The notes below the pieces were generated by a model. It made no database searches. It had not been told where the DNA came from and saw nothing but the letters and a program-made list of their open reading frames with translations. Position numbers and translations under genes: made by a program. DNA of 46,712 nt from Novosphingobium sp. 28-62-57 (lineage in GTDB: Bacteria; Pseudomonadota; Alphaproteobacteria; Sphingomonadales; Sphingomonadaceae): the NCBI GenBank assembly GCA_002256985.1, contig NCGO01000019.1, positions 1 through 46,712 of the forward strand, given 5' to 3'. Positions 2,319-21,418 of the stretch are shown in pieces. The number at the start of each line of letters is the position of its first letter. Position 1 is the first letter of the stretch.

Positions 2319-2451
2319 TTGGCATCAGTCATTGCCAGCGTTACGCGGATTGACCGACCGTCGCCATGACCTGAATTCCCGCGCTGCAGCATTCGCGGCG
2401 CATGATAAGGGCACCTCGCAACCAGAAGTCGGAATTGGCCTTGCATTTTTA

Positions 2452-2464: not shown

Positions 2465-2528
2465 AAAAGCCGTTCAGCCGCTCCCGGGCGGCAGGCTTCG
2501 TTTGCGGGCACCTTGGAGAGCTGTACAT

Positions 2529-3976: not shown

Positions 3977-4833
3977 AAAAGGCGCTGGTTACAGGCGTCA
4001 ACGGCCAGTTGGGCAAGGCTCTGCTGGCCGCGCGTCCAGCAGGCTGGGAGTGCGTTGCCGTGGATCGGGCCACACTCGATCTCACCGATACCGATGCCAT
4101 CGCGCGGATGGTGGATCAGGCCCAACCCGATCTTGTGCTCAATGCTGCAGCCTATACCGCCGTTGACCGCGCGGAAAGCGAGCCTGATCTGGCGATGGCG
4201 GTGAATGCTGCCGCACCCGGCGCATTCGCCCGCGCGCTGGCCGGATCGGCCGCCCGATTGGTGCAGGTGTCTACAGACTTCGTGTTCGATGGCACCAGCG
4301 GGTGTGGCTATCGCCCTGATGACGCCCGAAACCCGCAATCGGTCTATGGCCAGACCAAGGCTGCGGGCGAAGATGCGGCTGGGGCGGGCGCGATCATCGT
4401 GCGGACCAGTTGGGTCCATGCTGCAGGTGGTGCCAACTTTGTGCGCACCATGCTGCGCCTGATGCGTGAGCGCGATGAACTGCGTGTGGTGGCCGATCAG
4501 ATCGGCTCCCCCACTTGGGCTGCCGGGCTTGCACAAACCTTGTGGGGGCTTGCTGCAAAGAACCAGCCGGGGATCTATCATCACCGCGACGCCGGTGTTG
4601 CCTCGTGGTATGATTTTGCTGTGGCCATTGCGGAAGAAGGCCATGCGCTGGGCCTTTTGTCGCGCATCCCCGCAATTACGCCGATTGCCACTGCCGATTA
4701 CCCAACGCCTGCAAAGCGCCCCGCATTTTCGGTGCTCGACGTATCGTCCACCCGCACGTTGCTGGGTGATGCGCATGTTCACTGGCGCACCCATCTCAAG
4801 ACCATGCTGACAGAGGAATCGACTCTTGGCTAA
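3973..4833 (+). CDS. rfbD: dTDP-4-dehydrorhamnose reductase
   Basis: Last step to dTDP-L-rhamnose, an NADPH-dependent short-chain reductase. It shows the glycine-rich GVNGQLG at residues 8-14, NAAAYTAVDRAE, VSTDFVFDG and the YGQTK catalytic Tyr/Lys pair near 124-128, then RTSWV. At 286 residues it has the normal size. The start ATG overlaps the rfbC stop by four bases and the end overlaps the TTG of rfbB by eight bases. Confidence 0.95.
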   Translation: MKKALVTGVNGQLGKALLAARPAGWECVAVDRATLDLTDTDAIARMVDQAQPDLVLNAAAYTAVDRAESEPDLAMAVNAAAPGAFARALAGSAARLVQVSTDFVFDGTSGCGYRPDDARNPQSVYGQTKAAGEDAAGAGAIIVRTSWVHAAGGANFVRTMLRLMRERDELRVVADQIGSPTWAAGLAQTLWGLAAKNQPGIYHHRDAGVASWYDFAVAIAEEGHALGLLSRIPAITPIATADYPTPAKRPAFSVLDVSSTRTLLGDAHVHWRTHLKTMLTEESTLG

Positions 4834-5891: not shown

Positions 5892-6674
5892 ATGCGCTGG
5901 CGTCGTCTCGCTGGCATGGGTGCTGCCATTCTGGTGCTTGCCGGCGGAACAGGTATCGCCACGGGCGAACTGCCACGCTGGACCATTGGCGGGACGCAGA
6001 TGGTGTTGCCGACCGCGCTCGAACCCCTGTCTGCCAGTCCGATTGTTTTGCCGGCAACAGGAGCGATCCTGTTTGTGGGGGACAGCAACACCGCGGGTTC
6101 GCGCGTGGGGGGCGGGCGTTTTGCCTATCCGGCCACATTCCTTGCCGCGCTGCCCGTGGGGCAGACGGTGCGTGTTCACGCATTTGGCGGTGCTACTGTC
6201 GGCGATGTGCTTTCTCGCCCGCTGCCCGAAGGCGCGGTTGCGCTGGCTTTCGTGATGCTGGGCACAAATGACGCTGCACCGCGCGCTTGGCTTTCTGCCA
6301 AGCGCCGGATTCCGCTGGAGACCTATCGCACCAATCTGGCTGAACTGGTGCAGAGGTTGCAAGCAAAGGGCGCGCGGGTCGTCATCCTTGCGCCGCCGCC
6401 AATGGGCAGCCGCGCCATGCAGCGGCGGCTTGATCCTTACCGTCTTGCCGCAAAACAGGTGGCGCTGGCCTGTTCGTGCTTGTTCCGCGATTCTGCCGGG
6501 GCCTTCATGTCGAAACCTGATGCCAACTGGCTGCAGCGCGATGCGATGCATCTGGCGCCAGAGGCCCAGCAGCAACTGGGCCTCTGGCTCGCAGATCAGA
6601 CGACCAATGCGTCAGCGGCGGAGAGTTCGAGCACCGGAAAGCCCAACCCGGCGTCAGCCTCGCAGCCATCATAA
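5892..6674 (+). CDS. exported SGNH/GDSL hydrolase
   Basis: A 260-residue esterase-type protein with an N-terminal hydrophobic segment (about residues 8-24) that could be a signal peptide or anchor. SGNH blocks are FVGDSNTAG near 60 (nucleophile Ser), a Gly in FGGATVGD, MLGTND (Asn), and DAMHL near 216-219 (Asp and His). It likely removes or moves acyl groups on a glycan in the periplasm; substrate not visible. It starts four bases after rfbB, so it is probably in the same transcript. Its last 79 bases overlap the 3' end of the oppositely oriented fibre gene; in that stretch its tail is a low-complexity Ser/Ala/Asn segment. Confidence 0.8.
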   Translation: MRWRRLAGMGAAILVLAGGTGIATGELPRWTIGGTQMVLPTALEPLSASPIVLPATGAILFVGDSNTAGSRVGGGRFAYPATFLAALPVGQTVRVHAFGGATVGDVLSRPLPEGAVALAFVMLGTNDAAPRAWLSAKRRIPLETYRTNLAELVQRLQAKGARVVILAPPPMGSRAMQRRLDPYRLAAKQVALACSCLFRDSAGAFMSKPDANWLQRDAMHLAPEAQQQLGLWLADQTTNASAAESSSTGKPNPASASQPS

Positions 6675-9600
6675 AGGCTGCCCTTGTAGTGCGCGGTCAG
6701 TTCCTCTGACGTGCCATAGCTGAACGGGCCGCCACGCAGATAGCTCACTCTGGCCCCGGCAGGCCACGCACCGCTCGCAAGCGACAAGGTTACAGTGTCA
6801 GGCGCAGTGATCGTGGCTACGATGCCGCTGCGCAACCATGTGGAACCGCCGTTCAGCGAGTATTCGAAGCCTGCCACCGCGCGCCCGTCCTGCGTTCGTA
6901 GCGCACCACCGTTGGGCAATATGGCCTTGATCGACAACGACGTCCGGTCTGCCGCAACACTGGCACTGGCCTTGTCCAGCCAGGCATTGCCCGGCGATGG
7001 GCTCAGGCCCCGCGCGCGCAGATAGGTCTCGCCAATACGGATGCCCAGCCGGATCACCCCTTCGGGCACGACCTGGCTCTCGTGCGGACCGCCTAGGTTC
7101 ACATTGGGGCCGCTTGGTGTGCCCGCCGCCAGATTATCGATCGCCATGTCGGTCACCGCCGGACCTACTGCACTGATCGCCGGGTTGGCCGCCGCCCATT
7201 GCAGTTGCGCAGCCTGAGCAGCGTTGCGCGCCAGACCGAAATCATCGGCTGTGGTCGGTCCGGCGTTGGTCGCTGTCGCCCTTGTCGGCAGGCAGATGCC
7301 CAGCTTGTAACCGGGGGCGTTGATCGTCCCGTCAAACAGCCGGTAATTGCCTGTCAGGCTGCCGGTGCCATGCACCACACCATCCAGCAACGCGGGATAA
7401 CTTCCCGAGTCAGACGTATACCATTGCCATATTGGCACGCGATCGGTTCCGGCCAATCCTGCCATCTCCACATCCAGCGCCCATTGGCGAGGTCCGGTCG
7501 TGTCCCGTATCCAGTCAAGCGCGCTGGACCCGGGAATGCAGGTATCGATCACGCACAGCGCCTGGCCCGCTCCGAAGGGTTCGATGCGCGATGCAATCGC
7601 TGTGACGCCGTTGAAGGCGTTTGTCATTTCCGGTTCGATCACGAACAGTTGCGGACGGCTGGCCGTGCTGAACCGCCTTACCGGAGCGGTGACCGTATCG
7701 GCCGGATCGGTTCGGCTCCCGATAAATCCGCAGAATGATGCCAGACCCGAAGGCACCTGCGTCATCCCGCTGGCATAAAGCATGATATCACACTGGCTTT
7801 GCCCGATCACACTCAGCTTATGCCCACAGCCTACGCGGCTGTTCATGCGGAACACCAGATCAGGTTCGCTCTCGGACCAGAACTCCAAATAACCCCAGCC
7901 GGGGAAGGGCGGGAGCCAGAGAGTTATCGACATCACAGGTCCGGTGCCGTCGCACACGAATGGCGGTACCAGTTCCTCACTCTGTTGAGAGACCACGCGC
8001 GCAAACAGTGCGCCTGACAGTCCTGCGCTTGTCCCGCGCAACTTGATCGCGGCCTGCGCTTCACCATCCTTGGGACAGGCGACATAGCCGTCTGGCAAAC
8101 GGTCAATCTGCAGGAATTTGCCCGGCTGGTGGCTGCTTGTCCCAGCCGCGGAAATCGTGCCATGGATGGTGCCGCCCAGCGTCGCGTCGCCCGGCGCAAA
8201 CGCCGCCAGCGCAGTGGCAGGATCCGCTGTGTGGCGATAATCCCGCAGCAGACGAAACGCCGTTGCCTCAGGCAGGCTCTCAACAATGTCTGCGCCTTCC
8301 GCAATGGACTGCCATGCAGCATCACTGCCTGCAGTGCCAAGCACGAAGCCGTGGAAGGCTACTGCCCCATCAAAAGCGCCAGCCGGAGCCGTCAAAACGC
8401 CCAGTTCTCCCGACGTGGATGCTGAATCGCCCAGCAGCACATGGGTGCCAGCCAAGGCGTTGAGTTGCGCGTTGGTGCTTGATTGGCTGGTGCCGGCAAT
8501 CTTTGCCGCGCCATTGGCATAGCTGCTGATCGCGTACCCTCCCGCGCCATCGCACGAAATCACGATCAGTTGCCACCGGCTGCTGCGCAATTGCACGTCA
8601 ACCGAAAGGTCGATGGTATCCCCGCTCGATCCTCGGGCGCGCCAGCGGAATTCATCATGGCGTGCGGTATCAAAATGATCATCGCCATAATGCACCAGGT
8701 TGAACGTCGCACCTCCCCCGCTCATGCCATTGCCGATCACGCGAGCTTCGCGGTTCAGATTGGTGCGCTCGTGCGGCACCTGAAGCATGATGAAGAAGGC
8801 ACTCGGGGTATCAAATTTCAGCAGCGGCGATGAAGCAACATTTGCGCTCGGATAGGCAATGTTCCCGGCGCGGCCTTGATATTGCCGGTTGAACGCGGGG
8901 AACTGCACCCCACCAAACGATGACGCTTCAACAAGCGCAGAGGGGCTGCCCAGCGCAATCGGCTGGGCTGTTTCCGATCCTGCAGCTTCGGTCTCGCCAC
9001 GCAGATTGCCCAGCCGGTCAAAAGCGATCACAGGCGCCCGGCGCGTGGCGTGCAGTGTGCCGCGAATGGTGAAATCGCCCGCCTCGCTGCCAATAAAGCT
9101 CTGCTCGCGCGTACTGCCCACAAAAGACCGCAGCCCAATAGCAGCGCCAATGGCCCCATCCTGCAAATGGTTGTCGCGCAGCAGGTCCGTGTTTGCCTGC
9201 GTGCCAGGCCATGCCACGTCTGTGAACGAATTGTTGGCCACAAGGCACCAGGCATCGCCCGTGAACGACTGGTCACCGCGCAGGCCAAGCGCTTGTGATG
9301 CAAGGCTGTTGTGCGCGATCACCACGTGGCTTTTGGCGTTGGCCAGCTGGCTGCTGATATAAGTGAAGTTGGTGTAGAGATCGATCAGGGTCTTGTTGTG
9401 GAAGGCATTGTTGAAGAACAGGAAATCGCGTGCACCAGTGGTCCCTGTCAGGAAGATGTTCTGGGTGACCAGTTCTGTCGCGATGTTGTTGGCGACCACG
9501 CAGTTTTCGACAACGCGTCCTGCGTTCTGCTGGTACCAGTCGCTATGCACGTCAAACTGGGTAACAATCTCCAGCTCCACATTCCTGACATTTTGCGCGG

Positions 9601-11020
9601 TGAAGGCCTGGCCTGCCGTCCCCGCCAGCGCGCAGCCTGTCGCGCGCCGCGCATCGTCCAGCACTGTCGCCTCAAAGCCAACACCCAGCCCGTTGAGCCA
9701 GCCTGCCACATCACTCACGCGATAGTTGCCGCTCGCCTCCATCGCCTCTGATGTGCCGACCACAAATGTCGCACTATTGGCGCCCCAGCGCGCGGTAAAC
9801 GTGCGCGTGGTTGCTTCATTGGCACCGGCCAGTTCAAGCGTCGCAGTGGCTTCCGGCCCGGTATAGGTCACGCGCATCGAGGGCACATCCTGCGCCCAGA
9901 AAGATGAATCCCAGTCAGTGGTGCGCGTATGCACAACGCAGGCCGAATCGCTCAGCACGTCATGATAGCCGTTCTGCAGCCAGCAGTTCCGCACCAGCGT
10001 CGCGCCGTTCATGATATTCGGCATTCCGTCGGTCATGCATTCGGTAAACCACGCGGCATTGCGTACGAACTGCGAGAGCTTGCGCGGCGCGCTGCGCCAC
10101 ATGTCGTCGCGGCCGGCGGAATTGATGATGGCCACGCCATCCATCCAGTGCTGCCGCCCCGCCGGGTCTTCCTGAAAAAGGCTTGAAATGTAACGCGCAT
10201 CAATGGTGATGTTGCTGCCACTGAAGCGCAGTCCGTCAAAGCGGGTGCGCATTACAGACGCCGCCTCAGTGGTAAATCCGCTCTTGGCGATCACCACAGG
10301 CTGCTCGGCCCGGATCGTGCAGTAACCGGCAGGGGTGTAGCTGCTGGAAGGCCCTTGGCCGATATCGATCGTTCCGCCGCCACGGATGGTAATGAGCGGA
10401 TTTGCAGCGCCGACCGACGCAAGATAGGCAAGCGCCGCGCCTACCGAAGGATACCGGCTTCCCGCAATCGCAGGCAACCCTTGCTCGATCGTCAGCGCAT
10501 GATCATGCAGGTTTCGGGTGGGGTAAAAGCTGATCGGACCAATCACCCGGCTTTGCATGGCAGGGTCAAGCGGGATCGCTTCAAAATAGACATGCGCATG
10601 GCCACTGCGGCCATCGTTGGCCAGTTGCGCCCACCAGCCAAAGCAGGTTCGGCTCGTCCCATTGACGTCCCGGTATGTGCGCCAGGTCGGCTCGGTGATC
10701 ATGCTCTGGCTGCCCTCGCAATGCACCATCACGCCTGCCAGCCCCATGGTCGGCAACAGCGATCCACCGTTGTTCGCGCCTGCGATCACGCCCACGAACA
10801 GACTGCCGGAATAAAACTGGTTCGAAGGAACGACCAACCGCATCGCCGGTTTTGCCGTCAGGCGTTGCGGATCAACCGGTGCCGCACTTGCTGTAAATCC
10901 GCTTCCGGCTGCGCCATTCCAAGCGGATGAGGGCTTGATTCTGATTGGTAAAGGCCCGGTCTCGCGCCGTCCGGGCCTGCGTCTGCTGATCCGGCCAAAG
11001 CCAAAGCCAAAGCCCGCCAT
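6596..11020 (-). CDS. giant beta-helix/lectin/esterase protein, probable head-spike fibre
   Basis: A 1474-residue protein. After a short Gly/Arg-rich start there is a region of about residues 190-700 with the short repeated strands and Asn/Asp turns of a right-handed parallel beta-helix. A LamG or concanavalin-like stretch lies at about 700-880. A carbohydrate-esterase domain of the sialate O-acetylesterase (SASA) type follows: GQSQ near 1075 as nucleophile block, IDTCIPGSSALDW, a W-Q-W near 1198, and GGPHES near 1310 giving the His. A Tyr/Gly-rich beta domain closes it. The start ATG overlaps the stop of the upstream spike-base gene (ATGA), so the two are coupled. No signal peptide is visible, as expected for a virion-type fibre rather than a secreted enzyme. 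It would bind and de-esterify a surface polysaccharide; that role is inferred from domains and from its partner. Confidence 0.72.
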   Translation of the reverse strand: MAGFGFGFGRISRRRPGRRETGPLPIRIKPSSAWNGAAGSGFTASAAPVDPQRLTAKPAMRLVVPSNQFYSGSLFVGVIAGANNGGSLLPTMGLAGVMVHCEGSQSMITEPTWRTYRDVNGTSRTCFGWWAQLANDGRSGHAHVYFEAIPLDPAMQSRVIGPISFYPTRNLHDHALTIEQGLPAIAGSRYPSVGAALAYLASVGAANPLITIRGGGTIDIGQGPSSSYTPAGYCTIRAEQPVVIAKSGFTTEAASVMRTRFDGLRFSGSNITIDARYISSLFQEDPAGRQHWMDGVAIINSAGRDDMWRSAPRKLSQFVRNAAWFTECMTDGMPNIMNGATLVRNCWLQNGYHDVLSDSACVVHTRTTDWDSSFWAQDVPSMRVTYTGPEATATLELAGANEATTRTFTARWGANSATFVVGTSEAMEASGNYRVSDVAGWLNGLGVGFEATVLDDARRATGCALAGTAGQAFTAQNVRNVELEIVTQFDVHSDWYQQNAGRVVENCVVANNIATELVTQNIFLTGTTGARDFLFFNNAFHNKTLIDLYTNFTYISSQLANAKSHVVIAHNSLASQALGLRGDQSFTGDAWCLVANNSFTDVAWPGTQANTDLLRDNHLQDGAIGAAIGLRSFVGSTREQSFIGSEAGDFTIRGTLHATRRAPVIAFDRLGNLRGETEAAGSETAQPIALGSPSALVEASSFGGVQFPAFNRQYQGRAGNIAYPSANVASSPLLKFDTPSAFFIMLQVPHERTNLNREARVIGNGMSGGGATFNLVHYGDDHFDTARHDEFRWRARGSSGDTIDLSVDVQLRSSRWQLIVISCDGAGGYAISSYANGAAKIAGTSQSSTNAQLNALAGTHVLLGDSASTSGELGVLTAPAGAFDGAVAFHGFVLGTAGSDAAWQSIAEGADIVESLPEATAFRLLRDYRHTADPATALAAFAPGDATLGGTIHGTISAAGTSSHQPGKFLQIDRLPDGYVACPKDGEAQAAIKLRGTSAGLSGALFARVVSQQSEELVPPFVCDGTGPVMSITLWLPPFPGWGYLEFWSESEPDLVFRMNSRVGCGHKLSVIGQSQCDIMLYASGMTQVPSGLASFCGFIGSRTDPADTVTAPVRRFSTASRPQLFVIEPEMTNAFNGVTAIASRIEPFGAGQALCVIDTCIPGSSALDWIRDTTGPRQWALDVEMAGLAGTDRVPIWQWYTSDSGSYPALLDGVVHGTGSLTGNYRLFDGTINAPGYKLGICLPTRATATNAGPTTADDFGLARNAAQAAQLQWAAANPAISAVGPAVTDMAIDNLAAGTPSGPNVNLGGPHESQVVPEGVIRLGIRIGETYLRARGLSPSPGNAWLDKASASVAADRTSLSIKAILPNGGALRTQDGRAVAGFEYSLNGGSTWLRSGIVATITAPDTVTLSLASGAWPAGARVSYLRGGPFSYGTSEELTAHYKGSLYDGCEADAGLGFPVLELSAADALVV

Positions 11021-11602: not shown

Positions 11603-11845
11603 ATGGAACGTTCCGAAATCACCGAGCAGCTGACCGAAATCATGATCGATGTGTTCGATCTCGATGAACTAGATTATCGCGATGATCTCAGCGCTGCCGA
11701 TATCGAGGAATGGGACAGCCTGTCCAACATCCGCTTCATGGTCTCGGTCGAAAAGGCCTTCGGTTTTCGCCTGTCCAACAGCGAAATCGAAAGCCTCGAT
11801 AACGTCGGCGAAATGGTGGATTTGATCCAGCAAAAGCTCGCTTGA
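11603..11845 (+). CDS. acyl carrier protein
   Basis: An 80-residue acidic four-helix carrier. The phosphopantetheine attachment Ser39 lies in EEWDSLSNIRF, the typical D-S-L site. ATG 11603 has AAGAAGGA about five bases upstream and gives a standard ACP length; earlier starts would add a basic, non-conserved extension. It is not the fatty-acid ACP: no fab genes adjoin it, and the next gene is FkbH, which in polyketide pathways loads glycerate onto a dedicated ACP. It should carry a glyceryl or derived C3 acyl group here. Confidence 0.88.
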   Translation: MERSEITEQLTEIMIDVFDLDELDYRDDLSAADIEEWDSLSNIRFMVSVEKAFGFRLSNSEIESLDNVGEMVDLIQQKLA

Positions 11846-11885
11846 TCGTGGGTAGGCGCCGCCAGTTGCAAAGGGCCGCGTAATC

Positions 11886-13802
11886 ATGTCCGATGTGCTT
11901 GCACTGCCTTGGCTCCTTCCGGCTCCGGCAGATTTCCGCGCCCGCGTCCGCGCCCTCAAGGCGGCTGACGCGGTAACTGCGGCTGATGTCGTAGCGCTCG
12001 CGGCCTACGGGTTGGATCTCTCCCAGCTGGGTTCGCTCGGAAAAATCGTCGATGCCCGGCGCGACGATCTGGGTGCCGAAGGCCGCTTGCGCCCGGTCCT
12101 GCTCGGCATTGCGGCTACCCACACGCTCGATCTCGTGGCTGAGGCGCTGCCTGCCACAGCGCTGCGCCACGGCTTGCTGGTCGATACCGTGCAAACCGAT
12201 TACGGCCAGCTGGCGCAGGCGGTGCTTGATCCGGCGTCCTCGCTCGCCACGGCAAAGCCAGATTTCGTGCTGCTGGCGCTCGATGCCGGTGCCCTTGGCC
12301 TTGCCCGGCCGCAGTTCGAGGCAGAGGCTGCCGAAGCCGCAGTTCAGTCCGCGCTCGATTACGTCGCGTCGCTGCGCGATGGCGTTCGCGCCAACATCGG
12401 CGCTGGCGTCGTTCTCCACACGCTGGCCACGCCTGCGGAAAGCCTGTTCGGCAGCTATGATGCGCGCGTTCCCGGCTCGGTCCGCTGGCTGATCGCCCGC
12501 TTCAATCAGCGCCTTGCCCAGGAAATCGCGGGCGATGCGGATCTCTTGCTTGATATGGCGGCCCTTGCCGAAACGGTTGGCCTCGCCCGCTGGCATGATC
12601 CGCTGCGCTGGCACGATGCCAAAATGCCCTGCGCACTCGATGCCATTCCACTTTATGCCGATCATCTGAGCCGCCTGCTGGCCGCCGCACGCGGCCTTTC
12701 GCGCAAGTGTCTTGTGCTCGATCTCGACAATACGCTGTGGGGCGGGATCATTGGCGATGATGGCGTTGATGGCATCAAGCTGGGCCAGGGCTCGGCCCGG
12801 GGCGAAGCTCACCTTGCGGTCCAATCCTTGGCGCTCGATCTGCGCCGTCGCGGCATCATCCTTGCCGTCTGTTCCAAGAACGAAGAGGCCGCCGCGCTCA
12901 TTCCGTTCCGCGAACACGATGAGATGGTGCTGAAGGAAGACCATATCTCCGTCTTCGTCGCCAACTGGACCGACAAGGCCACCAACCTCAAGGCCATCGC
13001 GCAGGCCCTTAACATCGGCACCGACGCGCTCGTCTTCCTTGATGACAACCCGGCCGAGCGCGAACGCGTGCGGCAGGAGCTGCCCGAAGTTGCCGTGCCC
13101 GAAGTGGGCGATGAACCGTCGGATTATGTCCGCCTGCTCTCGCTCGCCGGATACTTCGAAGCTGTCGCCTTCAACGATGAAGACCGCAAGCGCGCCGATA
13201 TGTATCAGGCTAACGCCCAGCGCGCCTCGGCACTGCAAAAAGTCGGCAATCTCGACGAATACCTTGCCTCGCTCGACATGGAATGCACCATTGCGCCGTT
13301 CGATGACCTTGGCCGCGCACGCATTGCCCAGCTGATCAACAAGTCGAACCAGTTCAATCTGACCACGCGCCGCTACACCGAAGCCGATGTCGCCGCGATT
13401 CAGGCTGACCCGGCAAAGTTCACGATGCAGGTCCGTCTGGTCGATCGCTTTGGTGACAACGGCATGATCTCGGTCGTCATCTTCGACCGGGGCGAACAGG
13501 CATGGCACTGTGACACTTGGCTAATGAGCTGCCGTGTCCTCGGGCGCCGCGTCGAAGAAGCGGTGCTCGCGCACGTGGCGCAAGCCGCAAAGTCTGCAGG
13601 GGCCGCGCGCCTGACCGGCGAATACATCCCCACGCCCAAGAACGTGCTGGTCGAAAAGCACTTCGAAAAGCTCGGCTTTGCCCAAATCGGTGATCGCGAA
13701 GGCGGCGGTACGCAGTGGGCGCTCGATCTGGCTTCCTACGCATCGCCAGACCTGCCGATGCAGATCGACGCCAAGACCGCCGGCCAAACCGTACCTGCCT
13801 GA
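11886..13802 (+). CDS. FkbH-family HAD phosphatase/glyceryl-ACP synthase
   Basis: A 638-residue protein of the FkbH (HAD-IIIC) family. FkbH enzymes convert 1,3-bisphosphoglycerate into glyceryl-S-ACP. The HAD nucleophile motif DLDNTLWGG starts at D279, with D281 as general acid; VCSKNEE gives motif II and FLDDNPAERE the distal acidic residues. About 270 N-terminal residues form the SGNH-like N-domain of long FkbH proteins. A GNAT-like C-terminal part includes NKSNQFNLTTRRY and TWLMSCRVLGR. It follows the ACP by 40 bases. The ACP and MBOAT neighbours point to polysaccharide decoration rather than polyketide extension; that use is inferred. Confidence 0.88.
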   Translation: MSDVLALPWLLPAPADFRARVRALKAADAVTAADVVALAAYGLDLSQLGSLGKIVDARRDDLGAEGRLRPVLLGIAATHTLDLVAEALPATALRHGLLVDTVQTDYGQLAQAVLDPASSLATAKPDFVLLALDAGALGLARPQFEAEAAEAAVQSALDYVASLRDGVRANIGAGVVLHTLATPAESLFGSYDARVPGSVRWLIARFNQRLAQEIAGDADLLLDMAALAETVGLARWHDPLRWHDAKMPCALDAIPLYADHLSRLLAAARGLSRKCLVLDLDNTLWGGIIGDDGVDGIKLGQGSARGEAHLAVQSLALDLRRRGIILAVCSKNEEAAALIPFREHDEMVLKEDHISVFVANWTDKATNLKAIAQALNIGTDALVFLDDNPAERERVRQELPEVAVPEVGDEPSDYVRLLSLAGYFEAVAFNDEDRKRADMYQANAQRASALQKVGNLDEYLASLDMECTIAPFDDLGRARIAQLINKSNQFNLTTRRYTEADVAAIQADPAKFTMQVRLVDRFGDNGMISVVIFDRGEQAWHCDTWLMSCRVLGRRVEEAVLAHVAQAAKSAGAARLTGEYIPTPKNVLVEKHFEKLGFAQIGDREGGGTQWALDLASYASPDLPMQIDAKTAGQTVPA

Positions 13803-13842
13803 ACTTTTGCCAGCCTTAGCCTATGAAGGACGAGACTTCCTG

Positions 13843-14778
13843 ATGAACACCGAGTTCCAGCAGCTTCTCGAAGGACGTCCCGCACTGCAAAAGCTCGTGC
13901 AGCTTGTGGTCGATGTCTGGCCTGAGCATGAGTCATTCCTGCTGACCAGCTTCAAATCGCGCACTCCTGATCTGCTCGATACGAGCGATGCGATGGCCGA
14001 TGTTGTGCTGCGCCTTGCTGCGGGCCGCGAAGTGCAGGTGGCCAAGGACTATGTCTGGTTGTGCGAACAGATCCGCGAAGAGGAAATCAACTTCGCGCGG
14101 ACCGATGCCTATCGCTACTCAACTTTCGCCGAGACCAACGCCAACGTCTATTCCGACGATGCGTTCATGGAACGCTACATGCACGGCCTGCTCTACAGCC
14201 ACGTGCTGTGGTACATGCACGTCTCCAGCTTGCACTTTTTCCGCCAGCGCCTCGGCGCGCGGGTCAAGCCCGGCGGCAAGGTCATGGAAGTCGGCTCTGG
14301 CCACGGCTTGCTGATCTATCTGACCCTCACCGAACTCGGTATGGCCGAAGCCGTGGCATGGGACATCAGCGAAATCTCGCTGGCGCAAACGCGCCATGCC
14401 CTTGAATCGCTCGGCACCGCAGACCGCGCACGTTACGCCATTCAGGACATGCACAAAGTGCAGCCCGATGCCGAAAAGTTCGATCTGATCATTCTGAGCC
14501 ACCTGCTCGAACATTTGGAAGATCCGGTCGATGCGCTGCAAAAGCTGCGTCATGCCGTGGCCAAGGGCGGTTACCTGTTCGTCAATGTGCCGCTCAATGC
14601 GCCGATGCCCGATCACCTGCAATTGTGGCGTGATCCGGCAGATGTGATCAAGCTGCTCGAAGATGGCGGCTTCCGCACGCTGGAAATTGCCTCGCACACC
14701 ACGCAGGCCCTGCCACTGCCCAAGGCGCTCAAGCGCAAGATCGCGGTGACCTGTTCGGTCATAGCCGAACCCGCCTGA
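13843..14778 (+). CDS. class I SAM-dependent methyltransferase
   Basis: A 311-residue protein. About 130 mostly helical residues precede SAM motif I, EVGSGHG at 149-155. DISEISLAQ follows as the acidic strand-2 end, then LIILSHLLEHLEDP (motif near the active site) and GGYLFVNVPLN. FkbH/ACP clusters often carry an O-methyltransferase that acts on the ACP-bound hydroxy acid (glycerate to methoxy forms in known polyketide pathways), and this is the most likely job; a sugar O-methyltransferase is the alternative. The start at ATG 13843 has GGA about 13 bases upstream; starts further up overlap FkbH. Confidence 0.78.
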   Translation: MNTEFQQLLEGRPALQKLVQLVVDVWPEHESFLLTSFKSRTPDLLDTSDAMADVVLRLAAGREVQVAKDYVWLCEQIREEEINFARTDAYRYSTFAETNANVYSDDAFMERYMHGLLYSHVLWYMHVSSLHFFRQRLGARVKPGGKVMEVGSGHGLLIYLTLTELGMAEAVAWDISEISLAQTRHALESLGTADRARYAIQDMHKVQPDAEKFDLIILSHLLEHLEDPVDALQKLRHAVAKGGYLFVNVPLNAPMPDHLQLWRDPADVIKLLEDGGFRTLEIASHTTQALPLPKALKRKIAVTCSVIAEPA

Positions 14779-14796
14779 TAGGGCGCGGGGGGCAAA

Positions 14797-16350
14797 GTGC
14801 AGTTCAATTCGGCTGAATACATACTGGTTTTCCTGCCGCTGCTGCTGCTGGCCTATCACGGGCTTGCGGCGCGGCTCGGCACGGCTTTTCGGCAACTGCT
14901 GTTGATTGCTGCCACGCTGGTATTCTATGCTTGGGGCGGGCCAAAGTTCGTGCCGCTGCTGCTGGGCAGCATGGTGCTCAACTATGCCGCAGCTCAGATA
15001 ATCCAGCGCACCGCCACCACGCCCGCACGCCAGCATGTGCTGCTGTTGCTGGCGGTCGCTGCAAACGTGATCTTCCTCGGCTACTTCAAGTACCTGAACT
15101 TCCTGGCTGACATCTGGACCGATCTGGCCGGCGGCACCTTGCGGGTGGAAAACATCGCGCTGCCGCTGGGCATATCCTTCTTCACGTTCCAGCAGATCGG
15201 CTTTCTGGTCGAAGTCAGCCGCGGTCGTCAGCCTGCCGGAAAGCCGCTCGATTACGCCAGCTTCGTGCTGTTCTTCCCGCAGATTCTGGCAGGTCCCATC
15301 ACCCAATATGCCGAAATCGTGCCCCATCTGCGCACCCGCTTGGCGCGCGGCACTGTGGCACCCGCCATCCAGATCGGGCTGGCGCTCTTTGCCATCGGCC
15401 TGTTCAAGAAAACGGTCATCGCCGATACCCTGTCGCTCTATGCTGCGCCAAGCTTTGCTGCGGCGCGCGAAGGCGGAGCGCTGGGACTGCTCGATACGTG
15501 GATGGCCGCTTTTGCCTATACCGCGCAGGTCTACTTCGATTTCTCCGGCTATTCGGATATGGCCATCGGCACCGCGCGGATGTTCGGCCTGATCCTGCCG
15601 CTCAATTTCCACTCGCCCCTGCGTGCGCAGAGCGTGGTGGAAATCTGGCGCCGCTGGCATGTCACGCTGGGCCGCTGGATTCAGGCCTATGTGTTCCAGC
15701 CCATCTCCATCCCGCTTGCCCGCCGCGCCGCGATGGCGGGTTATGGCAAGTGGGGCACGCACGCGCTGTCGGTCGTTGCGCCCACGATGATATCCATGCT
15801 GATCGTCGGCGTCTGGCACGGGGCCGGGTGGACTTTTGTGGTGTTCGGGCTGATGCAGGGCACCTACATGTCGGTCAACGAGACCTGGACCGCGCTGCGC
15901 CGCAAAGCGCGCAAGGGCCGCAAGGGGCCGCGCGCAAGCTGGAAGATCGCCCTTTCCCGCACGGCGACGACGCTGGCCTTCGTCCTGTCGATCATACCCT
16001 TCGGGCAACCGACACTCGCCGCCGCCAATCGCATGTTCGCAGCCATGGTCGGTGCGGGCGATGGCCTGCTGGTCACCTCAGCAGACTGGCCGCTTGGTGC
16101 AGGTGCGGCCTTCGGGATCGTGGCGCTATGCTATGGTGCCCTGTTTGTTGTGCCCAATTCGCACCAGATCATGGACCGGTTCGAACCGGTGCTCGAATGG
16201 TCCACCCGCTGGCGCAAACTTGATCCTTCCGGTACGCGGCTGGTCTGGCAGATGACCCCCGGCTGGGCCGTGGCCACCGGCGCCACGCTGTTCCTCGGCT
16301 TTGCCTTCATCATGCGTGGCACCGCCACGTTCATCTACTTCAACTTCTGA
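14797..16350 (+). CDS. MBOAT O-acyltransferase, AlgI-like
   Basis: A 517-residue multi-pass membrane protein of the AlgI/PatA/DltB type, which moves acyl groups across the inner membrane to periplasmic glycans. It begins with NSAEYILVFLPLLLLAYH as AlgI proteins do, has GISFFTFQQIGFLVE and VYFDFSGYSDMAIG, and the invariant His341 in WHGAGW. The start is GTG 14797 after a G-rich ribosome site. Its stop and the ATG of the next gene share a base (TGATG), so the pair is co-translated. The upstream ACP suggests the donor could be an acyl-ACP, as D-alanyl carriers serve DltB. Confidence 0.92.
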   Translation: MQFNSAEYILVFLPLLLLAYHGLAARLGTAFRQLLLIAATLVFYAWGGPKFVPLLLGSMVLNYAAAQIIQRTATTPARQHVLLLLAVAANVIFLGYFKYLNFLADIWTDLAGGTLRVENIALPLGISFFTFQQIGFLVEVSRGRQPAGKPLDYASFVLFFPQILAGPITQYAEIVPHLRTRLARGTVAPAIQIGLALFAIGLFKKTVIADTLSLYAAPSFAAAREGGALGLLDTWMAAFAYTAQVYFDFSGYSDMAIGTARMFGLILPLNFHSPLRAQSVVEIWRRWHVTLGRWIQAYVFQPISIPLARRAAMAGYGKWGTHALSVVAPTMISMLIVGVWHGAGWTFVVFGLMQGTYMSVNETWTALRRKARKGRKGPRASWKIALSRTATTLAFVLSIIPFGQPTLAAANRMFAAMVGAGDGLLVTSADWPLGAGAAFGIVALCYGALFVVPNSHQIMDRFEPVLEWSTRWRKLDPSGTRLVWQMTPGWAVATGATLFLGFAFIMRGTATFIYFNF

Positions 16351-17417
16351 TGGTGCCGCCCGTGAGCCTTGACGCGCCAACAACGCCACCGCCTCCAGCG
16401 CCCGCCTCGTGGACGCAAATCGCGCTCGTCCTGCTGACATTCGCGGCGCTCAGCATCGGCTCGGCGTTTCTGCCGCACGATCCCTATGTCCGCTATCAGC
16501 AGTTGACCGAGACGATCCAGTTCCCCGCCGTCTGGGGCTACGAACGTATCGTCTTCGATCCAGCACCCATCGATGTCGCCGTGGTCGGCAATTCGCGCCT
16601 CCAGGCCGCAATCAGTGCGCCACAACTCTCGCAGGAATTGTCGCAAAGCCTTGGCCGCCCGGTCACCGTTGCCAATCTGTCGATGCCGCAGGAAGGTCGC
16701 AACGCGCATTATGCCATCGTGCGCAACCTGCTGGAACATCGGCCAGAGGTGAAGCTGATCATCCTGTCCGCCATCGAACAGATGCCGCGCGAAGGCCACC
16801 CGGCATTCCGCAGCATTGCCGAGGCGGGTGACCTCGCCACTGCACCCCTGCTGATAAACCGCGATTTCCTGAAAGATGCCGCGCAGATCCCGTTCCGTCA
16901 GATGTCGCTGTTCGTGCAGACGCAGATGCCTGCGCCCTTCGGCGTCACCCGCCAGTTCCGCAAGCAGGAATACTTCGGCACCGGCTATGACAGCACGTTC
17001 AGCTTCCGCAGCCCCACCGGCAACTTCGTGGATCGCGACTCGATCGTGCCCGCCGCAGACCTGCTTCCGCCCGCCCGCGCCCGCGCAGAATCGATCACGC
17101 CGCCGCTCTTGCCCGCCAGCGCTGCAGACATGGAATTCACGGTCGAACGCGTCTACACCCGCAAGATCGCCGAAATGGCGCGCGCCAAAGGCGTGCGCGT
17201 GGCGTTCCTCTATGCGCCGATCTATCACTATCCGCTGCCCTTGAAGGATCAGTCGTTCTACGAAGCCATCGGCCCGGTGCTGCAGGAAAAGTTCCTGTCC
17301 GCCCATCCTGATTGGTATTCGGACTATGGCCATCTCAACCGGCGCGGCGCGGTTCAATCCACCACTGCGCTGGGCACCTTTATCGCCGCGCAAGGCCTTC
17401 TGAAGGAAGCGGAATAG
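16350..17417 (+). CDS. AlgJ/DltD-like membrane-anchored SGNH protein
   Basis: A 355-residue protein with a Pro-rich start, one membrane segment at about residues 23-42 and a periplasmic SGNH-type domain. VVGNSRLQ puts the likely nucleophile Ser at 82, and D325-x2-H328 in SDYGHLNRRGA gives the other two residues. This is the arrangement in AlgJ/AlgX, PatB and DltD partners of MBOAT proteins, which complete acyl transfer to the polymer. The sequence is divergent from those proteins, so this rests on motif order and on coupling to the MBOAT gene. Confidence 0.72.
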   Translation: MVPPVSLDAPTTPPPPAPASWTQIALVLLTFAALSIGSAFLPHDPYVRYQQLTETIQFPAVWGYERIVFDPAPIDVAVVGNSRLQAAISAPQLSQELSQSLGRPVTVANLSMPQEGRNAHYAIVRNLLEHRPEVKLIILSAIEQMPREGHPAFRSIAEAGDLATAPLLINRDFLKDAAQIPFRQMSLFVQTQMPAPFGVTRQFRKQEYFGTGYDSTFSFRSPTGNFVDRDSIVPAADLLPPARARAESITPPLLPASAADMEFTVERVYTRKIAEMARAKGVRVAFLYAPIYHYPLPLKDQSFYEAIGPVLQEKFLSAHPDWYSDYGHLNRRGAVQSTTALGTFIAAQGLLKEAE

Positions 17418-17419
17418 CC

Positions 17420-17824
17420 ATGTTCAGCCGCTACAAGCTCCACCACGTCGGCGTGGTCATGCCCTCGATCGAAGATGCCGAGGCGCACATGCAACTGTTC
17501 GGCCTGACCGAGGATTATCGCGGCTATGTCGATCCGTGGCACTGCTGGTGCATCTTCGCCACGCCCGGCGATGGCGGCACGGCGGTGGAACTGGTCGTGG
17601 CCGATGAAGGCCCGCTGCTGAAGTTCAACAAGGGCATCGGCGGCGTCCACCACTTCGCCTACGAGATCGAGGACTTCGCCGAAGTCGCCAAATGGTGCGC
17701 GGCCAATGACTTGCGCCTGCTCGAACCCGAACCGATCAAGGGCGCGGGCGATTTCTGGTGCAATTTCATCCACCCGGTGTCCACCCGCGGCATCCAGATC
17801 GAATTCGTCCAACCATGGAAATGA
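17420..17824 (+). CDS. VOC-superfamily protein, methylmalonyl-CoA-epimerase-like
   Basis: A 134-residue vicinal-oxygen-chelate protein with two beta-alpha-beta-beta-beta units: LHHVGVVMPS near the start supplies the first His, GGVHHFAYEIEDF the second, and IQIEFVQPW the closing Glu. The layout is closest to methylmalonyl-CoA epimerase or glyoxalase-like proteins. It begins two bases after the stop of the SGNH gene, with GGAAG upstream, so it belongs to the ACP-FkbH-MBOAT operon. It may isomerise or dehydrate the thioester-bound C3 acid; nothing in the sequence fixes the substrate. Confidence 0.78.
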   Translation: MFSRYKLHHVGVVMPSIEDAEAHMQLFGLTEDYRGYVDPWHCWCIFATPGDGGTAVELVVADEGPLLKFNKGIGGVHHFAYEIEDFAEVAKWCAANDLRLLEPEPIKGAGDFWCNFIHPVSTRGIQIEFVQPWK

Positions 17825-17878
17825 GGGCTCAGCGCTCTCGCATCTGTGCAATCACTTCGCAAACCTAGAGGACTGGCT

Positions 17879-18976
17879 ATGGAAACAGCTTCATCGACGC
17901 CGGGACGTTTGCCCGACACGCTCGGCTTGCGTTTCGCTGCGCGGACGACGGGTGGATTTGATTATCTGCGCATCGTTCTGGCAGTCGCTGTAGTCTACTG
18001 GCACACATGGGCTGTCGTGCTGGCCGGGATTGATAATCCGCCGCTGTGGATCCAAATATCCGCCCGCGCCATCCTTCCGGTCTTTTTCGGATTGAGCGGC
18101 TATCTGGTCGCCTCAAGCCTTGAGCGCACCGCCCATCTGCCGATCTTCCTGTACATGCGGTTCTTGCGCATTTTCCCGGCTCTGGTCGTCGAAACCATTC
18201 TCTCGGCGCTCCTGCTTGGCACGCTGATTACAACCCTGCCGTTGAGCGAGTACTTCACCCATCCTGTGTTCCTCGATTACTTCAACAACCTCTACGGCAA
18301 TGTCCGGTACTATCTGCCGGGTGTGTTTGAAAATCAGCCCTATACCAAGGTCAACGCCAGCATCTGGACCGTTCCGTTCGAGTTGGAATGCTATGTCGCG
18401 CTGTCGGCGCTCTATCTTTTCGGCCTGTTCCGCAACAAGTGGGTGCTGCTGGCGTCGGTCCTTGCGGTAGGTGCGCTTTTCGCATGGCAATTGCGCGATC
18501 TCCCCGATGCCGAAGGCCTCGTCATGCCGGGCCGGGTGCTCGTGATGGGCTTCCTGTTCGGCAACGTGATCTACAAATTCCGCGAAAGCCTGCCCGCGGG
18601 GGCTTTGGTCGGCGCGGTCATGACCGTGCTGACGATGTTCCTGATGCGCCACTCGCTCAGCATGATCCCGGCGGCCTTTACGGCTGCCTATGCCGCCGCT
18701 GCCTTGGGTTCGACGAACCCGTGGCGCGCGCCGATCATCTTCAATGGCGATTACAGCTATGGCGTCTATCTCTATGCCTTCCCGATCCAGCAACTCGTGT
18801 ACTGGCTGTTCGAATCGCGCTCGTTGGCGTTCAATTTCTTCTGCTCGATGCTGCTCATATCGCTGTGGGCGGCGTTCTCCTGGCACTGTGTTGAAAAGCC
18901 GACGCTCAAGCTCAAGCGCATCTTTGAAAAGAAAAAGCCGGTCAAAGTGCCGGAGGGCGCGGCTCCGGCAGGCTGA
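17879..18976 (+). CDS. acyltransferase 3 family membrane protein
   Basis: About ten hydrophobic segments over 365 residues, of the OafA/NodX type that O-acetylates surface sugars. FDYLRIVLAVAVVYWHTW gives the conserved R and H of helix 1, FFGLSGYLVASSLER and FLRIFPAL follow, and SIWTVPFELECY holds the conserved Glu. ATG 17879 is preceded by AGAGGA at 17868-17873; a start further upstream lacks such a site. It ends in a Lys-rich cytoplasmic tail. It resembles the second acyltransferase at 21422-22537, which has the same SIWT-x3-E block. Confidence 0.88.
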   Translation: METASSTPGRLPDTLGLRFAARTTGGFDYLRIVLAVAVVYWHTWAVVLAGIDNPPLWIQISARAILPVFFGLSGYLVASSLERTAHLPIFLYMRFLRIFPALVVETILSALLLGTLITTLPLSEYFTHPVFLDYFNNLYGNVRYYLPGVFENQPYTKVNASIWTVPFELECYVALSALYLFGLFRNKWVLLASVLAVGALFAWQLRDLPDAEGLVMPGRVLVMGFLFGNVIYKFRESLPAGALVGAVMTVLTMFLMRHSLSMIPAAFTAAYAAAALGSTNPWRAPIIFNGDYSYGVYLYAFPIQQLVYWLFESRSLAFNFFCSMLLISLWAAFSWHCVEKPTLKLKRIFEKKKPVKVPEGAAPAG

Positions 18977-19086: not shown

Positions 19087-19923
19087 ATGAGCGTCCTTGA
19101 ACTTCATGACCGCGGAGGGCTCTACGCTTTTGACGAAGCGCAGTGCGCCGAAGCGGGAAAGCAGCTGGCGGAACGCTACCAGTCTGCAGATCCGTTCCCG
19201 CACATCGCCATCGATGATTTCGTGCCCAAATCCGCGCTGCACGAACTGCTGGCCGAATTCCCCGGCAGCGACGGCCACGAATTCTACGACCGCGATCAGG
19301 AACGCTTCAAATATCAGTATCACCCGCAGGAATGCGGCCCGCGCGTGCGCAATCTGCTGGCGGAATTGAACAGCCAGGCCTTCCTGTCGTTCCTGTCGGC
19401 GATGACCGGGATCAAGGGGTTGATTTCCGATCCCTATTATCTGGGTGGTGGCCTGCATGAAACCAAGCGCGGCGGCCATCTTGGCGTTCACGCCGATTTC
19501 AATGTGCACAACAAGATGAAGCTGCAGCGCCGCCTCAACTTGCTGATCTATCTCAACGATGATTGGGACGAAGCGTGGGGCGGTCAGCTTGAACTGTGGG
19601 ACCGCGAGATGAAGGGCTGCACCACAAAGGTCGCCCCGCTGATCGGCCGCGCCGTGGTGTTCAACACCGATCTCGATAGCTTCCACGGCCACCCCGATCC
19701 GCTGGAATGCCCGCCCGAACGCTCACGCCGCTCGATCGCCACGTATTACTACACCGCCCCGCCCGAAGGCATCGCCAGCCTGCCAAAGCGCACCACCGTG
19801 TTCAAGGAGCGCCCCGGCACGACCGACCGGCCAGACTGGAAAGTGCGCGCGCAGCATTTCTGGAAGGACTGGGCACCGCCTGCCGTGCAGCGCATGATGT
19901 CGTCTTCGGCGGCTGCGGATTGA
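19087..19923 (+). CDS. 2OG-Fe(II) oxygenase (prolyl-4-hydroxylase-like)
   Basis: A 278-residue double-stranded beta-helix oxygenase. The iron site reads H135-x-D137 (GVHADF), with a distal His at about 200 in DSFHGHP, and R-x-S in SRRSIATYYY for 2-oxoglutarate binding. LNLLIYLNDDWDEAWGGQLELW is a signature stretch of the family. AGAGG lies about eight bases before the start. In polysaccharide clusters such proteins may hydroxylate a lipid, sugar substituent or acyl group; the target is unknown. It lies between the acyltransferase and the polymerase and is transcribed with them. Confidence 0.85.
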   Translation: MSVLELHDRGGLYAFDEAQCAEAGKQLAERYQSADPFPHIAIDDFVPKSALHELLAEFPGSDGHEFYDRDQERFKYQYHPQECGPRVRNLLAELNSQAFLSFLSAMTGIKGLISDPYYLGGGLHETKRGGHLGVHADFNVHNKMKLQRRLNLLIYLNDDWDEAWGGQLELWDREMKGCTTKVAPLIGRAVVFNTDLDSFHGHPDPLECPPERSRRSIATYYYTAPPEGIASLPKRTTVFKERPGTTDRPDWKVRAQHFWKDWAPPAVQRMMSSSAAAD

Positions 19924-20017
19924 TCAAACCCGAAGCGCGCAGCCCACTGTTGCCGCCGCGAACCATTCAACGCGGCAACAGTGGCCAGCGGCGCAAATCT
20001 GCTTTATCAGGTGTTTG

Positions 20018-21418
20018 ATGACCACAGCCACGCCCACCGCTGATCCCGCCGCAGGCCCGCTGTCGCCACCGTCGGGAAGCACTGGCCAACCCGCCGCGCG
20101 CGTGCGCCTTTCTGCGGTGGAACGGCGTGCGGCGTGGGCGCGGCACCGCCGGGAAATGACCCGGCTGATCACGGCCAAGGCGGACTGGGTGCCGGTCCTG
20201 ATCTTCGCCTCGATCCTGATGACGCCAGAGGCGCGCATCGATCTTGGCGGGTTTCAGCTTTATCCCTATCGCTTGGCGCTGCTTGCGGCACTGCCGATGA
20301 TGCTGGTCAGGCTGGCCAAGCGCCCCGTGCGGCTGGGCCCGGCCGATCTGCTGATCACCGCGTCATCTATGATGATGTTGATCGCGATGGCCTTGCGTTA
20401 CCCGCTTGACGTTGCGCTGAAGACAGGCGGCGGGGTTACGATGGATGCGCTGCTTGCCTATTTTGCAGGGCGGATTTTCTTCCGCTCGTCGCTGGATGTG
20501 CGGCGCTTTCTCTACAGGATTTCACCGCTCCTGCTGGGTGTCGCCATCGTCATGGCACTCGAAAGCGTCAGCCACCGCTATTTGCTGCGGCCCTTTGTCG
20601 GCGCGGTCACCGGCTTTTCCCCTGATGCGGCGCTCGCCCGCATGTATGAAATTCGCCTGGGCCTGTTGCGCGCAACGGGGCCGTTCCTGCATCCGATTGC
20701 GGCAGGCTTGTTCTTTGGCTCGCTGGTGCCCTTGTTCTACTCAGCCGATCTTCCCAAATGGCGCTGGCTGGGGCTGCTAGGGTGTTTGGGCGGCGTCTTT
20801 GGGTGGAGCTCGGCGGGCATTGTCGCCATTTCAGCGGGTCTGGGTCTGGGCCTGTATGATTCCTTCCAGCGGCGCTATCGCGTCGGCTGGGGGTCACTGC
20901 TTCTGGCCCTCCTGTTCGGGGCCGTGCTGATTGAAGCGCTTTCGGGCGGCGGATTCGTCAAATTCGTAATCCGCTATGCGGCGCTAAATCCGCAGACGGG
21001 TTATTTCCGCCTGCTGATCTGGGAATATGGCTGGGCGAACGTGGCCAAATCGCCGTGGATCGGGATTGGCTACTTTGAATCATACGAACGCCCGGTCTGG
21101 ATGCGCAGCGACAGCGTCGACAATTACTGGCTGTTGCAGGCGCTACGCTATGGCTTGCCGAGCATGGCCATGCTGCTGGTCGGCGTGTTTCTGATCATTT
21201 TCAAACTCGGCGTCTCTCGCCAAGGTCAGGAACTGGGCTCGTTGAATGGGCGGCGCATGGCAACCGGGCTGTGCATTTCCTTGGCCACAACGGTGGTATC
21301 GCTGCTCACCTCATCACCATGGGGGGCCGACATGGCATGGCTGACGGTGGTGTTTGGCATGGCCGCTGGCCTTGCCGACAAGTCCGAACCGCCTCGCTCT
21401 CGCGCTGCAATCCGATAG
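20018..21418 (+). CDS. O-antigen polymerase-like membrane protein (Wzy)
   Basis: A 466-residue integral membrane protein with a 60-residue cytosolic N-terminus rich in Ala, Pro and Arg, about ten to twelve hydrophobic segments and a large loop between them. PFLHPIAAGLFFGSLVPL and SPWIGIGYFESYERP near residues 345-360 resemble the O-antigen ligase/polymerase superfamily, where the long periplasmic loop carries the active residues. The family is poorly conserved, so ligase and polymerase cannot be told apart; the context favours a Wzy polymerase. The start is ATG 20018; a TTG just before it is less likely. Confidence 0.75.
   Translation: MTTATPTADPAAGPLSPPSGSTGQPAARVRLSAVERRAAWARHRREMTRLITAKADWVPVLIFASILMTPEARIDLGGFQLYPYRLALLAALPMMLVRLAKRPVRLGPADLLITASSMMMLIAMALRYPLDVALKTGGGVTMDALLAYFAGRIFFRSSLDVRRFLYRISPLLLGVAIVMALESVSHRYLLRPFVGAVTGFSPDAALARMYEIRLGLLRATGPFLHPIAAGLFFGSLVPLFYSADLPKWRWLGLLGCLGGVFGWSSAGIVAISAGLGLGLYDSFQRRYRVGWGSLLLALLFGAVLIEALSGGGFVKFVIRYAALNPQTGYFRLLIWEYGWANVAKSPWIGIGYFESYERPVWMRSDSVDNYWLLQALRYGLPSMAMLLVGVFLIIFKLGVSRQGQELGSLNGRRMATGLCISLATTVVSLLTSSPWGADMAWLTVVFGMAAGLADKSEPPRSRAAIR

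Follow-up and report, generated by a model that had tools for sequence, protein, structure and literature searches.

In Gram-positive bacteria, the Dlt system (DltA-DltB-DltC-DltX-DltD) carries out the D-alanylation of teichoic acids. PatA, an MBOAT acyltransferase paired with an SGNH protein, uses acetyl-CoA in pathways without a carrier protein and takes the acyl group on the tyrosine of its C-terminal FxYxxF motif, a tyrosine that DltX supplies in the Dlt system (PMC12148441), and the loading chemistry of FkbH proteins has been described for the assembly lines of polyketide synthases (PKS) and nonribosomal peptide synthetases (NRPS) (PMC8949500). Here we analyze a cassette of six genes, encoding an acyl carrier protein (ACP), FkbH, a methyltransferase, an MBOAT, an SGNH protein and a VOC protein, in a 46,712-nt stretch of Novosphingobium sp. 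28-62-57 (positions 1 to 46,712 of contig NCGO01000019.1, called the window below). The cassette probably represents a Gram-negative, Dlt-like system for the carrier-fed acylation of an exported polysaccharide, in which the carrier would be loaded by FkbH. In the open-licence literature searched, no polysaccharide system built from FkbH, ACP and MBOAT was found described, and FkbH appeared there together with an MBOAT in an NRPS context only: the MBOAT encoded with suomilide has been proposed to act in a separate step, the acylation of the peptide's sugar (PMC10143770, PMC13122637).

All six genes lie on the plus strand, separated by 40, 40, 18, -1 and 2 bp. Each of them is present where the original prediction, made from the letters of the DNA, had placed it, and the same gene set was found again in loci of relatives. 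The first gene (11603-11845) encodes an ACP of 80 amino acids (aa; PF00550, 26.3 bits), with the phosphopantetheine serine Ser39 (codon 11717-11719) in the sequence EWDSLSN; the WDS triplet is conserved in 20/20 aligned ACPs from the family-level loci, window included. The operon thus has, as Dlt does, a dedicated carrier with a phosphopantetheine serine (here in DSL). The second gene (11886-13802) encodes a 638-aa FkbH of the HAD-IIIC glyceryl transferase/phosphatase family, which scores 308.6 bits against TIGR01686, well over the cut-off of 146.65 bits, and 54.7 bits against PF21211. Its DxDxT motif is intact, and Asp279 and Asp281 (the HAD aspartates, in DLDNTLWGG) as well as Cys549 are invariant in 19/19 aligned FkbHs; the single solved relative detected by sequence (E<=0.01), 3slr, is uncharacterized. 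None of the nine scanned operon proteins is an AMP-binding ligase of the DltA type, the rest of the genome not having been searched for DltA, and FkbH appears to stand in place of DltA in the operon. The two would differ in chemistry, FkbH drawing the acyl group from an acyl phosphate whereas DltA adenylates an amino acid with ATP. FkbH matches with one in-frame TGA each were reported in two other genomes (G227 and G171).

As in the PKS/NRPS loading systems (vioprolide, suomilide), the cassette combines FkbH with a carrier, sometimes accompanied there by O-methylation of the glycerate, but it contains no PKS/NRPS module, and its carrier adjoins a membrane acyltransferase pair. A PKS or NRPS partner elsewhere, which the original prediction had named as evidence that would speak against it, was looked for in the genome (39 contigs, completeness 100; one FkbH, one MBOAT) and not found. 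The NRPS condensation domain PF00668 had no match, and the ketosynthase domain PF00109 had one full-length match, in a 447-aa frame that has the apparent size of a stand-alone fatty-acid enzyme, plus six short partial ones.

The MBOAT (517 aa, 14797-16350; PF03062, 76.6 bits) matches only DltB (8jem/6bug, E 7e-34) when solved chains are searched by sequence with E<=0.01, and its His288 and His341 align with His289 and His336 of DltB, with positions counted on the alignment to solved DltB. A model of the L. plantarum proteins has DltB touching DltC through Met298, Val301, Phe302, Met305 and Arg313 (PMC9338922). The S. thermophilus DltB residues Met302, Val305, Ile306 and Met309 show the same spacing and lie opposite residues 301, 304, 305 and 308 of the window MBOAT. 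With the DltC contacts mapped in this way, which we infer from alignment, residues 295-309 of the window MBOAT are probably the carrier-docking segment, at the place where DltB is likely to bind DltC.

We compared MBOATs encoded within 5 kb of FkbH (linked) with MBOATs of FkbH-bearing genomes that are encoded farther off (unlinked) and that we take to be AlgI-type. Forty unlinked sequences, mostly the higher-scoring ones, were fetched out of 82 matches not within 5 kb of FkbH. After removal of MBOATs that are shortened or come from split contigs (L041, L046, L066) or are located more than 5 kb off (L100, L101), 51 linked and 40 unlinked sequences entered the motif counts; the tree also dispensed with rows of <=380 aa (L076, L097_5651) and held 49 linked and 40 unlinked members. 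In the tree, linked members cluster, with 7 label changes compared to 29.5 in shuffles, and 31 rows, the window among them, form a clade of linked members only (SH-aLRT 89). The segment that follows the first catalytic histidine is longer in this clade (median 46 residues) than in the unlinked MBOATs (33), and 38/40 unlinked MBOATs carry Y-x-P-L-G-G a few residues after that histidine, as against 2/51 linked ones. The window MBOAT lacks the motif, and one of the two linked MBOATs that have it (L083) comes from the one locus in which no ACP was matched. The strict pattern was written after the alignment had been inspected; a looser one, [LMA]GG anywhere in the segment, occurs in 4/51 linked and 38/40 unlinked sequences. 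Y-x-P-L-G-G, which AlgI/PatA-type unlinked MBOATs keep and the cassette MBOATs lack, may mark the use of acetyl-CoA, and it is probably the carrier that supplies the linked MBOATs.

The last six residues of the window MBOAT (512-517) are FIYFNF, with Tyr514 encoded at 16336-16338, that is, with the shuttle tyrosine in FxYxxF known from Dlt, although the motif is not specific to Dlt. FxYxxF stands at the very C-terminus in 28/31 clade members and in near variants in the other three (a count of 29/31 had included one internal match, in L093). The gene that overlaps the MBOAT gene by one base (16350-17417) encodes a 355-aa candidate SGNH/DltD-like acyltransferase, recognized by predicted fold and alignment, with an N-terminal helix (residues 21-39) and with Ser82, Asp325 and His328 invariant in 13/13 aligned members. 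It matched no Pfam or NCBIfam profile (E<=0.001), the DltD Pfam family included, and no solved chain by sequence, but all five chains that Foldseek matched to its AlphaFold model (pLDDT 90.0) at E<=0.001 are DltD. Fold and conserved residues together point to a DltD-like SGNH partner with a Ser-Asp-His set. In three relatives (L041, L042, L046), a second SGNH-like protein replaces the methyltransferase between FkbH and MBOAT.

The cassette shares with Dlt the carrier protein beside an MBOAT, the matching catalytic histidines, the FxYxxF tyrosine and an SGNH partner that is DltD-like in fold; unlike Dlt, it has the shuttle tyrosine fused to the MBOAT rather than on a separate DltX, it resides in a Gram-negative exopolysaccharide locus with optional methyltransferase and VOC genes, and its MBOAT scores far below the DltB cut-off. 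With PatA/PatB and AlgI/AlgJ it has in common an MBOAT with a fused C-terminal FxYxxF, an SGNH partner and a Gram-negative envelope polymer, but it differs from the PatA/PatB type in having an ACP. The membrane pair described as AlgI/AlgJ-like in the original prediction is present, but by its partners and by the SGNH fold it is better called Dlt-like; the DltB profile score is of no help in this choice.

A gene-neighborhood survey of FkbH with MBOAT, the check suggested together with the original prediction, revealed a recurrent linkage. All match counts are lower bounds, since the genome searches scored only a handful of top candidates in each genome. In the family sample, at least 28 of 249 genomes, the source genome included, carry an FkbH at E<=1e-30; at class level FkbH was found in at least 35 of 385 genomes, and at phylum level in at least 58 of 398. 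An MBOAT homologue lies nearby in 15 of the 27 FkbH loci of relatives (16/28 with the source genome counted). MBOATs were then searched for in 80 FkbH-bearing genomes, nine others being left out, which gave 118 FkbH and 114 MBOAT matches; for 32 of the FkbH matches, spread over 29 genomes, an MBOAT lies no more than 5 kb away, compared to about 0.4 expected under random placement in 4-Mb genomes. Related gene sets occur in many other Gram-negative bacteria. Among the 34 wider loci that were fetched (32 with an MBOAT within 5 kb and two with one at about 6 kb), an ACP was matched in 33, five times weakly (28-35 bits). Because the ACP is near-constant whereas the methyltransferase, VOC and SGNH genes are patchy in these loci, we consider FkbH, ACP and MBOAT to be the core. 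The 20 family-level MBOAT loci, which include the named relatives L032-L036 and split contigs, show the SGNH family in 13 cases, the VOC in 10 and the methyltransferase in 11. Ten Sphingomonadaceae genomes (L056-L065) have a distant FkbH (28-35% identity) in a different setting with no MBOAT match close by, and some of them have conserved neighbors in common (L056/L057, L062/L063).

The nearest named relatives, N. jiangmenense (L032) and N. meiothermophilum (L033), have FkbHs 91% and 90% identical to that of the window. In L032, as in a Novosphingobium metagenome-assembled genome (L034) that also has a 91% identical FkbH, the MBOAT is only 44-46% identical, and in L033, which has both methyltransferase and VOC, it is 45% identical. 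The loading genes are separable from the transfer genes in close relatives, a pattern reminiscent of serotype modules, as though the transfer genes were swapped as a block. Across L032-L034, FkbH, a 2-oxoglutarate (2OG) oxygenase-like protein and, where present, the ACP are 90-94% identical to their window counterparts, and the MBOAT and SGNH proteins only 38-49%.

Published genetics bear on one member of the group. In genome G057, the cassette lies on a contig of 6,205,897 bases as FkbH-ACP-MBOAT-SGNH-VOC, without a methyltransferase, beside ssZ, ssS and rml genes. Set against the lengths in Table 1 of PMC5399355, the MBOAT has 521 aa (ssI, 521) and a neighbor 482 aa (ssS, 482), and the rml products match the same table (rmlD 297, rmlB 356, rmlC 186 and rmlA 288 aa, in the order rmlC-B-D-A). 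Three open reading frames (ACP, FkbH and a SASA-type esterase) lie between ssI and the AT3 protein, in keeping with the accession numbers 57204 and 57208; the AT3 protein does not match the length of ssZ (372 aa) exactly. Given these lengths and this order, we take G057 to be S. sanxanigenens NX02 and its cassette MBOAT to be ssI. In S. sanxanigenens, mutation of ssI (NX02_28110) gave a sanxan-negative phenotype that was complemented; ssI was published as an 'alginate O-acetylation protein' with an acylation mechanism called unclear, and the main text of that paper mentions neither FkbH nor a carrier protein nor a glyoxalase (PMC5399355). An acyltransferase needed for polymer production has been described in another sphingomonad, prmO of promonan (PMC11340318). 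Searched against 201 genomes of one Sphingomonadaceae genus (g92), the NX02-type MBOAT found matches with E<=1e-20 in at least 43 genomes, and in eight of these the match was better than E 1e-90.

Parts, linkage, motifs and folds can be read from the sequence, and from them we infer every chemical step as well as the identity of the acyl group and the acceptor. FkbH would load a C3 acid, most likely D-glycerate derived from 1,3-bisphosphoglycerate, as a thioester on the dedicated ACP, which would play the role of DltC. Optional tailoring might precede transfer: the methyltransferase might O-methylate the acyl group, or else the glycan, and the alpha carbon of the acyl-ACP might be acted on by the VOC protein, for example, as an epimerase. 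The acyl-ACP would then dock at the cytoplasmic face of the MBOAT (in the role of DltB), on the helix after the first catalytic histidine, as DltC does on DltB, and the MBOAT would pass the acyl group to its own Tyr514, in place of DltX. Finally, the DltD-like SGNH protein would accept the acyl group on Ser82 and esterify an exopolysaccharide, probably a rhamnose-containing one, or its lipid-linked repeat unit. The core of the original prediction, namely, that FkbH produces an acyl-ACP from which an MBOAT acylates a polysaccharide in a Dlt-like manner, is supported by the linkage, the motif contrast, the shuttle tyrosine, the DltD-like fold, the lack of a PKS/NRPS partner and the genetics of ssI. 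The Dlt-like cassette thus has good support as a genetic unit and partial support from motifs and folds, while its chemistry is a proposal.

The methyltransferase and VOC genes, which the original prediction had counted as parts of the cassette, are present in it but turn out to be optional. The class I S-adenosylmethionine-dependent methyltransferase (311 aa, 13843-14778; PF13489, 60.6 bits; model pLDDT 93.4) belongs to a broad superfamily, with Foldseek matches that include small-molecule methyltransferases and the PKS O-methyltransferase StiD; possibly, it O-methylates the acyl group or the glycan. The VOC protein (134 aa, 17420-17824; PF13669, 60 bits) resembles methylmalonyl-CoA epimerases and glyoxalases, but with 56.9 bits against the methylmalonyl-CoA epimerase profile TIGR03081 it falls short of the cut-off of 114.95. 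Its His9, Glu57, His77/His78 and Glu128 are invariant in 11/11 VOCs and are likely metal ligands, and an equally invariant Val37 lies opposite a glutamate of 3oa4; both the ligand roles and the catalytic role of that glutamate are our assumption. Glyoxalase I yields an alpha-hydroxyacyl thioester through a metal-bound enediolate. Since glyceryl-ACP is a thioester of this kind, an epimerase activity of the VOC protein is chemically plausible, and we speculate that it could convert D- to L-glyceryl-ACP.

If both enzymes were obligate, the MBOAT would transfer a different acid, for example, an O-methylglyceryl group. This variant of the scheme is a serious contender, although we rate it below even chances. 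Both genes are present in the window and in five of the other 20 family-level loci (L033, L035, L036, L040, L044), a methyltransferase of the cassette family stands beside FkbH in 10/34 wider loci, and O-methylglycerate on an FkbH-loaded carrier has been proposed for the suomilide and varlaxin NRPS (PMC10143770, PMC13122637). However, L034 has no VOC, L032 has neither gene despite an FkbH 91% identical to that of the window, and L039, L042 and L043 lack the methyltransferase only. Relatives without one or both genes show that neither is needed for the cassette in general, which makes them tailoring genes rather than core ones.

Several observations weigh against carrier-fed acylation as such. 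No MBOAT lies near FkbH in 12 of the 27 family relatives, ten of which have a distant FkbH (28-35% identity), or within 5 kb of 86 of the 118 FkbH matches in the 80 genomes, and the chance baseline ignores a possible shared preference of FkbH and MBOAT for polysaccharide loci. The wider loci contain a VOC in 4/34 cases, strong in one only (L073, 194 bits), and the SGNH family of the cassette in 2/34, both weak and partial. Among ten open reading frames beside MBOATs (ten loci, two of them family-level), six had no Pfam match at E<=0.05, one (in L079) matched DUF1574 above the cut-off, and the rest gave sub-threshold matches (GDSL, lipoxygenase, DUF1574/DltD). The SGNH partner is shown within the family only and is at most a candidate part of the wider loci; in the window, its fold matches to DltD are modest (TM about 0.4). 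The test of motif against linkage under phylogenetic control left about four pairs in agreement, none in disagreement and two undecided (p = 0.125), so that the trend keeps its direction but is not significant. The FxYxxF ending occurs in 39/40 unlinked MBOATs as well and thus supports acyl export rather than carrier feeding. With 188.7 bits against the DltB profile TIGR04091, the window MBOAT remains below the cut-off of 375, and among 11 MBOATs tested the linked ones (155-189 bits) and the five unlinked ones (146-176 bits) score alike. The profile score was accordingly rejected as a discriminator, and we limit our claim to a Dlt-like interface and partner set, as distinct from DltB identity. 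Lastly, sanxan is reported to carry acetyl on glucose, with glycerate not named (PMC9104527), although sanxan needs four acyltransferases; the open-licence literature searched contained no statement that sanxan carries glycerate and none that excludes it.

The similar DltB scores, the shared FxYxxF ending and the acetyl groups of sanxan would all suit ordinary O-acetylation, in which the MBOAT-SGNH pair uses acetyl-CoA in the style of AlgI/AlgJ or PatA/PatB, as such pairs do on several polymers (PMC12148441), while FkbH and ACP serve a separate product or are passengers of the locus. We nevertheless regard this explanation as improbable, given that FkbH-MBOAT linkage far exceeds random placement across many families, that an ACP accompanies the pair in nearly every wider locus, that Y-x-P-L-G-G is nearly absent from linked MBOATs and that no PKS/NRPS able to use the ACP was found in the genome. 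Least convincing, and very improbable in our assessment, is a role of FkbH and ACP in making either a small molecule for secretion or an amino sugar that is N-acylated while still a nucleotide sugar, rather than an exported O-ester, because, although FkbH was described from PKS/NRPS assembly lines (PMC8949500) and carrier-fed N-acylation of a sugar is compatible with the sequence, no such assembly line was found in the genome, 0/9 scanned operon proteins match an N-acyltransferase family in Pfam, and the MBOAT has near its C-terminus a shuttle tyrosine of the export type, as well as a partner that resembles DltD.

If carrier-fed acylation by the cassette is real, it would constitute a second, Gram-negative branch of carrier-fed systems, with FkbH, a family described from PKS/NRPS work, as the charging enzyme. 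Such a branch would provide a mechanism for ssI, the sanxan acyltransferase needed for polymer production, add hydroxy acids from glycolysis to the known surface esters and offer a tool to alter how food and industrial gums are acylated. More tentatively, and with considerable doubt, we can envisage a widespread and so far unrecognized class of carrier-fed MBOAT-SGNH systems in Pseudomonadota that draw on a glycolytic acyl phosphate, via FkbH and a dedicated ACP, to form glycerate esters on exported polysaccharides, in one branch of which the VOC protein would turn D-glyceryl-ACP into L-glyceryl-ACP through a metal-bound enediolate, as glyoxalases do, and so supply L-glyceryl groups of the sphingan type.

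Gellan (L-glyceryl) and welan (glyceryl) are sphingomonad exopolysaccharides that do carry glycerate esters. The cassette was considered as a source of the L-glycerate of gellan, but this is an analogy only: according to Table 1 of PMC5399355, ssI went undetected in the strains that make gellan and welan, and these may use another enzyme. No assigned glyceryltransferase gene for gellan was found in the open-licence literature searched.

The cassette sits in an exopolysaccharide locus with dTDP-rhamnose genes upstream, spanning 2451-5887 on the plus strand: rmlA (2451-3434; PF00483), an rmlC-like (3320-3976) and an rmlD-like (3892-4833) open reading frame, matched by the rmlC and rmlD frames of L043, and rmlB (4826-5887; PF16363). 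Genes for rml enzymes are also found near the cassette in L032, L033, L035 and L043, and a single one in L039. Past 17824, the same-strand run continues with genes for an AT3 acyltransferase (17846-18976; PF01757), the 2OG-Fe(II) oxygenase-like protein (19087-19923; PF13640) and a Wzy_C/O-antigen ligase family protein (20015-21418; PF04932, 34.3 bits), at gaps of 21, 110 and 91 bp, and farther downstream lie another AT3 gene and one for a GT2 glycosyltransferase. The first AT3 gene is likely part of the same transcript, though outside the core, and could provide further acyl decoration. The 2OG gene adjoins the cassette in L032-L034 (90-94% identity) and lies near it in L041 (57%).

Two further genes lie between rmlB and the cassette. 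Directly 3' of rmlB, 5892-6674 (plus strand) encodes an additional GDSL/SGNH hydrolase that may add or remove acyl groups on the same polymer. On the opposite strand, 6596-11020 encodes a 1474-aa protein without a Pfam match. L032 and L033 have a homologue of about 70% identity next to the cassette, and L035 and L039 have shorter or partial ones (36-42%) there.

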